Positions 30,185-31,095 of a stretch of 35,462 bases of DNA are shown piece by piece (within the stretch, counting starts at the first letter, position 1; each line of letters opens with the position of its first letter). Both the position numbers and the translations under genes were made by a program. Source of the DNA: Chthonomonadaceae bacterium (GTDB taxonomy: Bacteria; Armatimonadota; Chthonomonadetes; Chthonomonadales; Chthonomonadaceae); the NCBI GenBank assembly GCA_027450145.1, contig DAIDKH010000044.1, forward strand, positions 1-35,462, written 5' to 3'. Under the pieces are notes generated by a model. It was not told the origin of the DNA. It made no database searches and saw only the letters and a program-made list of their open reading frames with translations.

Positions 30185-30213
30185 ATTGTACAGGTCTTAG
30201 ACATGATTGTCAA
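30185..30213 (-). promoter_or_regulatory. Sigma70-type promoter of mraZ/dcw operon
   Basis: On the minus strand TTGACA (30213-30208), exactly 17 bp, then TACAAT (30190-30185): a perfect -35 and a 5/6 -10 at optimal spacing. Transcription would start near 30178, giving a leader of about 135 nt that includes the G-tract array. Confidence 0.8.
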
Positions 30214-30395: not shown

Positions 30396-30683
30396 ATGGC
30401 TGATCCGTTGTGGGGGGTAAACGGGGCGTTTGCGGCAGGTAACAAAGTGTATATGCGAGCCGCAGCGGGACAGATATTGCGCAGGGATGGCTTGCAGACG
30501 TCGTTCCATATTGTAGGCACTTACCGGCCAACCATATGGTTTGAACCAGATTGGGATCACGGCAAGCAGCTTGCCCATGCGTTCCCGTACTGCAGAATCT
30601 GTTCAATTCCAGTGGAGTCGTGTTCAGTGAACCTGAGAAAGGTTCCGGGATGGAGGCCGCGCCGAGATTACGGCAGAGTGTAA
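30396..30683 (+). CDS. Small hypothetical protein, divergent from mraZ
   Basis: I do not recognise this 95-residue product. It begins MADPLWGVNGAFAAGNKVYM, is rich in aromatic residues (Trp in PLWG, IWFEPDWDH and PGWR) and has cysteines in YCRIC and ESC that could bind a metal. The C terminus is strongly basic (RKVPGWRPRRDYGRV). AGGA lies about 10 nt before the ATG. A TTGACA at 30344-30349 has no good -10 partner, while TATAAT at 30244-30249 has a poor -35. It ends just before the minus-strand terminator at 30682-30713, a convergent arrangement that mildly supports a real gene. It may also be chance. Confidence 0.4.
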   Translation: MADPLWGVNGAFAAGNKVYMRAAAGQILRRDGLQTSFHIVGTYRPTIWFEPDWDHGKQLAHAFPYCRICSIPVESCSVNLRKVPGWRPRRDYGRV

Positions 30684-30713
30684 AATTATAGCCCGATGCC
30701 ATTGGCACCGGGC
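30682..30713 (-). terminator. Intrinsic terminator of the candidate small RNA
   Basis: On the minus strand GCCCGGTGCC (30713-30704), loop AAT, GGCATCGGGC (30700-30691), then TATAATTTT. The stem is 10 bp with one G-U wobble. On the plus strand the same position is an A-C mismatch and no T-tract follows, so the minus strand is the transcribed one. Confidence 0.75.
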
Positions 30714-30873
30714 TTCAGCAGGTCAACAGGACGGTTTGTCCCGTTCATCACTACTCTTGACAGGAGGGGGTCGCGTTGCGAGCCCACTCGCCAAGATGGT
30801 TAAAACAGGCTAACCCGCCTGATCACCTCGTTGACTATAATCCATAAAAACGCACCACCTCCTTTCTTAGTCT
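30682..30873 (-). ncRNA. Candidate structured small RNA (~190 nt), unrecognised
   Basis: It is bounded by a consensus promoter (30880-30908) and an intrinsic terminator (30682-30713). Several helices are visible on the minus strand. A long-range helix pairs AGGAGG (30863-30858) with CCTCCT (30767-30762), continued inward by GGT/ACC and GCG/CGC. Inside it are CAGGC-GGGTTA-GCCTG (30821-30806) and GCGAG-TGGG-CTCGC (30791-30778). GTCAAC (30835-30830) can pair with GTTGAC (30727-30722), with AGG/CCT added across a one-base bulge. That helix crosses the first, so it would be a pseudoknot or an alternative fold. The helix also hides a perfect ribosome-binding site ahead of an 11-codon frame (30845-30810). 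I do not recognise 6S, SRP, RNase P or tmRNA landmarks. Confidence 0.6.
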
Positions 30874-30879
30874 GATTCC

Positions 30880-30908
30880 ATTATCGCAAAAAGAGACGAT
30901 TCTGTCAA
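30880..30908 (-). promoter_or_regulatory. Consensus promoter of the candidate small RNA
   Basis: On the minus strand TTGACA (30908-30903), exactly 17 bp, GATAAT (30885-30880): a perfect -35 and a 5/6 -10. The predicted start is near 30873. No protein gene with a normal reading length lies between here and the terminator at 30682. Confidence 0.8.
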
Positions 30909-30913
30909 TATGC

Positions 30914-31002: not shown

Positions 31003-31060
31003 AAAAAAGGGAATAGCGTACAAACCTCCGGCTTTAGAGCAGGAGAGTCTGTACGCTATT
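31003..31060 (-). terminator. Intrinsic terminator of the dnaJ-prmA-rsmE-TPR operon
   Basis: AATAGCGTACA (31012-31022) and TGTACGCTATT (31050-31060) form a perfect 11-bp stem. Inner CTCC/GGAG and GCT/AGC pairs extend the hairpin. On the minus strand CCC then TTTTTT (31008-31003) follows. It lies about 35 nt beyond the stop of the TPR gene. Confidence 0.8.
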
Positions 31061-31095
31061 GCAAAAAACGGAAACGTTACGCCTAGCTGTTTCGG

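Follow-up and report, generated by a model that had tools for sequence, protein, structure and literature searches.

The window examined here, a stretch of 35,462 nucleotides, carries on its minus strand at positions 30680-30910 a conserved RNA gene, which on comparison with related genomes we are nearly certain is real. Its features are collected in Table 1. The promoter proposed in the initial annotation (TTGACA and GATAAT separated by 17 nt) is present and matches the consensus at 11 of 12 positions. The intrinsic terminator is also as described, valid only on this strand, although we count 11 pairs in its stem (30714-30690) instead of 10; the stem includes one G-U pair, closes on a 3-nt loop and is followed by ATAATTTTAC. 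A TPR-protein gene lies on the promoter side, and between the two is a long inverted repeat (AATAGCGTACA ... TGTACGCTATT, 31007-31062) followed by a T-run, which looks like the terminator of the TPR-protein gene. On the other side, a 95-aa ORF (MADPLWGVNGAFAAGNK..., plus strand, 30396-30683) is convergent with the RNA, and related ORFs are convergent to it in several relatives (cluster c8). The start of mraZ is ~640 nt past the RNA terminator. A second minus-strand site upstream of mraZ (30185-30213, TTGACA-17-TACAAT, 11 of 12) is probably a separate promoter of the dcw operon.

Table 1 Predicted features of the RNA gene, in order of transcription
Feature	Position	Strand	Basis or remark
-35 box, TTGACA	30903..30908	-	promoter scan
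-10 box, GATAAT, preceded by extended TG	30880..30885	-	promoter scan
Predicted transcript, ~190 nt	30683..30873	-	ends inferred from promoter and terminator; no transcript data
SD1, strong Shine-Dalgarno sequence, AAAGGAGGTGGTG	30853..30865	-	nearly invariant alignment columns; ~8 nt from predicted 5' end
Micro-ORF, 11 codons, ATGGATTATAGTCAACGAGGTGATCAGGCGGGTTAG = MDYSQRGDQAG*	30810..30845	-	frame kept in homologs
SD2, anti-Shine-Dalgarno match in the ORF, GAGGTGATC	30821..30829	-	GAGG to stop codon 13 nt
Segment 1, P2 5' strand, last ORF codons, UCAgGCGGGUUA	30811..30822	-	swap test
Segment 2, P3 5' strand, CCUGUUUUAACC (family consensus NNGUUUUAGCC)	30798..30809	-	near-invariant UUUUARC; alternatively in hairpin S with the stop region
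Variable loop insert of P3	30753..30797	-	in the genus holds CGCGACCCCCUCCU (30775-30762), complementary to SD1
Segment 3, P3 3' strand or hairpin C 5' strand, AGUGAUGAACGGGAC (family consensus GGUYAUGAAC)	30738..30752	-	AUGAAC near-invariant in most lineages
Hairpin C, alternative to P3, AACGGGAC AAACC GUCCUGUU	30725..30745	-	predicted fold and swap test
Segment 4, P2 3' strand, UGACCUGCUGA	30715..30725	-	swap test, covariation
Intrinsic terminator, 11-bp stem and T-rich tail	30680..30714	-	terminator scan

Homologs of the RNA were found across the Armatimonadota. In a BLAST search with the 231-nt region, 28 of 101 genomes (that of the window together with 100 relatives) were matched, nearly always at a single place. 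A sequence profile built from these homologs gave matches in 99 of 291 Armatimonadota genomes; with a broader one, the count is 91 of the 205 genomes that are at least 90% complete. Both profiles gave one place per genome. Weak profile matches were read individually, and 13 of 14 share the anatomy of the other copies. One of these lies in a 5.23-Mb single-contig genome that we take to be Fimbriimonas ginsengisoli. One weak model match (L168) resembles noise from coding sequence. When 84,980 species were scanned with a pattern, 57 stretches were returned, comprising 49 true matches, whose names or element anatomy fit Armatimonadota (Chthonomonadaceae, Fimbriimonadaceae, Armatimonadaceae and unnamed MAGs), and eight chance matches outside the phylum, which are segments of ordinary, unrelated protein genes.

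The genes next to the RNA differ between lineages. Based on reading of translations and not on family searches, the RNA is followed on the same strand by mraZ in some members of the window's family, by greA-lysS in two further families, and by an amidohydrolase gene in a single-contig 3.44-Mb relative (G003, probably Chthonomonas calidirosea T49). The nearest downstream gene is often convergent. The copies upstream of greA-lysS are L010, L104, L119 and L133 (families f8 and f19). The position upstream of mraZ that was initially emphasized is correct for the window, but it is one of several contexts across the phylum and incidental; given this variation, we do not favour a function linked to mraZ.

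When the region is considered alone, scans for transcription signals are uninformative: three promoters were found where 1.9 are expected in shuffled sequence, and two terminators where 2.3 are expected. Both counts are at chance level, so comparative evidence was required. Among 61 non-redundant copies, 72% have a sigma-70 promoter (at least 9 of 12) within 68 nt upstream of SD1, compared with 1% of random windows, and 59% have a terminator-like site 70-280 nt downstream, compared with 2%. The distance from the end of the -10 box to GGAGG is tightly constrained in the homologs (interquartile range 15-17 nt). Conservation in relatives removes the doubt left by the chance-level scans. This enrichment and the varied, often convergent downstream genes point to a stand-alone RNA, although its transcription is inferred. 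Members of the family measure ~110-200 nt.

The family is previously undescribed. With the covariance models of Rfam 15, no match was obtained anywhere in the window at the gathering score, and relaxed filters gave only a chance match to SNORD95 (E = 3.1). The suggestion that no standard RNA family is present at the locus therefore holds for all Rfam families at both thresholds, including 6S RNA and tmRNA. No match to 6S RNA (RF00013) occurs in the window; among 41 relatives, 22 have a 6S RNA, and in several of these the new RNA is present as well, at other coordinates. A tmRNA has tRNA-like ends and a tag ORF without its own Shine-Dalgarno sequence. There is no tmRNA (RF00023) match in the window, the ORF described below has a strong Shine-Dalgarno sequence, and the tmRNA of this genome is a separate gene (G000:C20:29860-30213). 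A search of the literature on small RNAs, leader peptides and structured RNA motifs of Armatimonadota found nothing relevant to this RNA. As a separate observation, 13 of the 17 genomes in the window's family (f1), the window's own among them, lack a 6S RNA match. Elsewhere in the phylum most families have one; f1 possibly has a divergent 6S RNA.

The initial annotation saw no normal gene in the ~190 nt between promoter and terminator, and read the locus as a small RNA. The RNA gene stands, but this reading missed an 11-codon ORF (30845-30810) behind a near-perfect Shine-Dalgarno sequence, as well as a second such sequence linked to its stop codon. The RNA is thus not purely non-coding, as judged from its predicted micro-ORF. 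The 16S tail GGATCACCTCCTTT is present in 5 of 7 relatives tested and was not found in the window's own draft assembly. In homologs the ORF has 10-14 codons and directly follows SD1, starting with ATG, or with TTG in one lineage. We located the stop without using the frame, and the first in-frame stop lies at the border of helix P3 (the UUUUAGC motif) in 60 of 61 copies for frame 0, compared with 19 and 3 for the other frames; the lone exception is a mis-picked ATG start. The frame is preserved although the stop codon itself is UAG in 43 copies, UAA in 12 and UGA in 6. In Fimbriimonas-type members, the UAG within UUUUAGC serves as the stop codon. The micro-ORF is very probably translated, although translation remains an inference.

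The encoded peptide has a core of S-Q/L-R-G-D/G, or GG-x-GF at the C-terminus. Synonymous changes occur at conserved residues (Leu as CTC, TTA, CTA and TTG; Arg as CGA, CGG, AGA and AGG). The only Gln codon used is CAA, and nearly every Arg codon is CGA. The peptide varies (QRGD, QRRC, QPEGG, QGGxGF) where the nucleotide sequence of SD2 stays, in different codon phases.

SD2, which includes forms such as GAGGUGA, GGAGG and GGGAGG among the homologs, keeps its place relative to the stop codon and not the start codon, whatever the ORF length or codon phase. SD2 and the stop are 12.5 +/- 1.1 nt apart, and ATG and SD2 21.7 +/- 3.4 nt; the three codon phases are represented by 49, 9 and 3 copies. 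The mean duplex energy with the 16S tail has a sharp peak 10 nt before the stop. Measured to the P-site codon of a terminating ribosome the spacing is ~9.5 nt, compared with 10.6 nt from SD1 to AUG. This is the spacing that an element holding the ribosome at the stop would be expected to show, with the holding itself being inferred. Selection for P2 pairing or for the peptide, and not for the ribosome, could also explain why SD2 is retained.

The predicted fold of the RNA has an energy of -81.7 kcal/mol (z = -5.6; 0 of 200 shuffles as good) and includes the hairpins reported earlier. The crossing pairing is also present, as segments 1 and 4, and is conserved across the phylum. The long closing helix, in which SD1 pairs with CGCGACCCCCUCCU, appears in the predicted fold, but is limited to the window's own genus (L001-L003), the only copies with the SD1-complementary sequence. 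This minimum-free-energy helix, which hides SD1 (SD1 with CCCCCUCC), was rejected as a family feature. A further helix, P1, would pair GACU upstream of SD1 with AGUC in the ORF; the swap test lends it no support (z = +0.6).

The crossing pairing, P2, joins the 3' end of the ORF to the strand just before the terminator. When partner strands were swapped among 33 lineages, the true partners paired at -18.6 kcal/mol and the swapped ones at -15.6 kcal/mol (z = -6.6; 0 of 20000 permutations). Reversed-strand controls are near zero (z from -0.8 to -1.5), and each of four clades, taken alone, also shows a negative effect. Based on 25 copies with the stop in UUUUAG, which are mostly Fimbriimonas-type and form an independent clade, z is -7.9 (0 of 20000; controls -1.6 to -1.9). 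In this clade both strands have changed at 8 of 10 pairs, and double-change cells number 26, compared with 5.9 in shuffles; it should be noted that the 3' register was picked as the best-pairing one, which somewhat favours the helix, and that a one-column slide gives 2-5. P2 here includes SD2 itself. Pair counting for P2 and P3 in a small compact alignment gives only marginal support because the P2 register slips between lineages.

The other helices are less well supported. The UUUUAGC and GUYAUGAAC motifs are near-invariant just after the stop in most lineages, and P3 is formed by GUUUUAGC with GUYAUGAAC plus flanking pairs, enclosing a loop that ranges in homologs from 3 nt to more than 80 nt. 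The core is near-invariant. Covariation is seen in the outer pairs (z = -6.3), but the reversed-strand controls are themselves negative (-3.8 to -4.3). For hairpin S (the stop region with UUUUAGCC) the controls are -2.3 to -2.9. Part of the swap signal of P3 and S is thus due to clade composition, and S is weakly supported. Hairpin C (z = -4.4) has clean reversed controls, is weak inside single clades and is only moderately supported. RNAalifold preferred S and C with the compact set, and P2/P3-like pairings with the window's own family; this is consistent with alternative folds but is not proof of them. The tandem duplication of the UUUUAGC ... GUYAUGAAC module after the ORF in family f6 (L021-L026, L153 and L159; Chthonomonadia / HRbin16 group) suggests a discrete functional unit.

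Comparison with relatives thus bears out the proposal of a new RNA gene with a switch-capable fold, through homology across the phylum, enrichment of promoters and terminators, and covariation in helices. The four segments can pair as 1:4 and 2:3, or as 1:2 and 3:4, which amounts to attenuator logic without an attenuated gene. These alternatives rest on predicted energies and covariation.

Our preferred explanation, to which we give about an even chance, is that the RNA is a stand-alone switch and that its fold is governed by whether a ribosome is held at the stop codon. A ribosome would load at SD1, translate the short ORF and arrive at the stop. There, SD2 would pair with the 16S tail at the spacing of SD1 and start codon, and the terminating or post-termination ribosome would be held. 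The held ribosome would keep the ORF end and UUUUAGC single-stranded, so that P2 and P3 could not form and hairpin C would form instead. Without a ribosome, P2 and P3 would close, and in the Fimbriimonas-type clade P2 would directly bury SD2. The fold would in this way report ribosome loading or termination. Support for the switch comes from one copy per genome, the promoter and terminator enrichment, the kept frame, the stop-locked SD2, the strong covariation of P2 and the mixed downstream genes; transcript, ribosome-profiling and probing data are lacking. Because the RNA has its own terminator and differing neighbours, action in trans is most likely, and might proceed via a protein, an mRNA or the ribosome itself, with no target or output identified. 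The fuller proposal, that the RNA is a trans-acting sensor of ribosome supply or termination, with the Shine-Dalgarno sequence at the stop holding the terminating ribosome and no cis target, is tentative, and we would not yet bet on it.

The same evidence was weighed against four other explanations. A classical non-coding small RNA that pairs with antisense targets would account for the size and the free-standing promoter and terminator, and its ORF would be an accident; the excess of in-frame stops (60 of 61 copies), the nearly invariant SD1 and the conserved start codon leave it barely tenable. If, conversely, the 10-14 aa peptide were the product that matters, with the structured tail only protecting or tuning the message, then the preserved frame, the strong SD1 and the synonymous changes at conserved Leu and Arg residues would be expected. 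We nevertheless consider such a micro-mRNA unlikely: the peptide changes where SD2 stays as nucleotides in differing codon phases, Gln and Arg codons are nearly fixed, and the end of the ORF covaries with a downstream RNA strand, a pairing for which a peptide has no need.

A ribosome decoy or parking RNA, which would titrate or hold 30S or 70S ribosomes, for example during slow growth, and whose fold would toggle the docking site, is suggested by the presence of two anti-Shine-Dalgarno matches in so short an RNA, the second at initiation spacing over a stop where there is no start. This appears improbable, as such a role would demand very strong expression from one gene whose sigma-70 promoter is ordinary, and the conservation of UUUUAGC and GUYAUGAAC suggests a partner beyond the ribosome. 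We regard as similarly improbable a cis-acting leader of the downstream operon (mraZ-dcw in the window) with occasional terminator readthrough. The ORF resembles that of a leader peptide and has alternative pairings and a terminator after it, and mraZ lies downstream of the RNA in several genomes of the window's family, as greA-lysS does in two other families. However, mraZ is far past the terminator and has its own promoter-like site, a convergent gene often lies in between, families do not share the same downstream genes, which are often on the opposite strand, and no switch segment overlaps the terminator stem.

The retention of the RNA as a single copy across a deep-branching and little-studied phylum suggests a core function. 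If ribosomes are held at its stop codon, it would be a natural system in which to study Shine-Dalgarno-assisted pausing at termination. Conserved ORFs of ~10 codons whose constraint is partly at the RNA level are missed by annotation pipelines. We know of no described system that joins a free-standing RNA, attenuator-like exclusive helices and a stop-locked second ribosome-binding sequence.

Several known systems share parts of this anatomy. Attenuators with leader peptides (trp, his and erm types) also have a short ORF with a strong Shine-Dalgarno sequence, mutually exclusive pairings and an intrinsic terminator, and in them, as proposed here, ribosome position can decide the fold. The RNA differs in having no common regulated gene downstream on the same strand (mraZ, greA-lysS or amidohydrolase, often convergent), no run of codons for a single amino acid, and an SD2 tied to the stop codon. 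Its terminator is not one of the alternative folds, as the stem is 3' of segment 4 without overlap. Control of the pairings by the position of a translated ORF, as in attenuators, is inferred here from the kept frame and from the covariation of P2 and P3, with C and S weaker. The internal Shine-Dalgarno-like sequence just upstream of an in-frame stop resembles the programmed-frameshift signal of E. coli prfB, in which such a sequence lies 6 nt before the stop and causes a +1 shift on CTTT (PMC12421855). Here, the spacing is mostly 10-13 nt, approximately that of a start codon, and there is neither a slippery CTTT in the ORFs listed nor a downstream reading frame.

The dual-function or mRNA-like small RNAs SgrS-SgrT (PMC4021124) and VcdRP (PMC8672173) are likewise free-standing and also carry an ORF. 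An independent unit with its own promoter and terminator, as expected of this class, is present here on sequence evidence alone. The Armatimonadota RNA is unrelated to them in sequence and phylum, its ORF has only 10-14 codons with a 3' end inside the conserved fold, and SD2 is placed at the stop. The trans-acting leader peptide peTrpL (PMC7298713) illustrates that the product of a tiny attenuator-type ORF can act away from its gene. Unlike peTrpL, the RNA has no shared attenuated operon, and it is the RNA that is conserved and not only the peptide.
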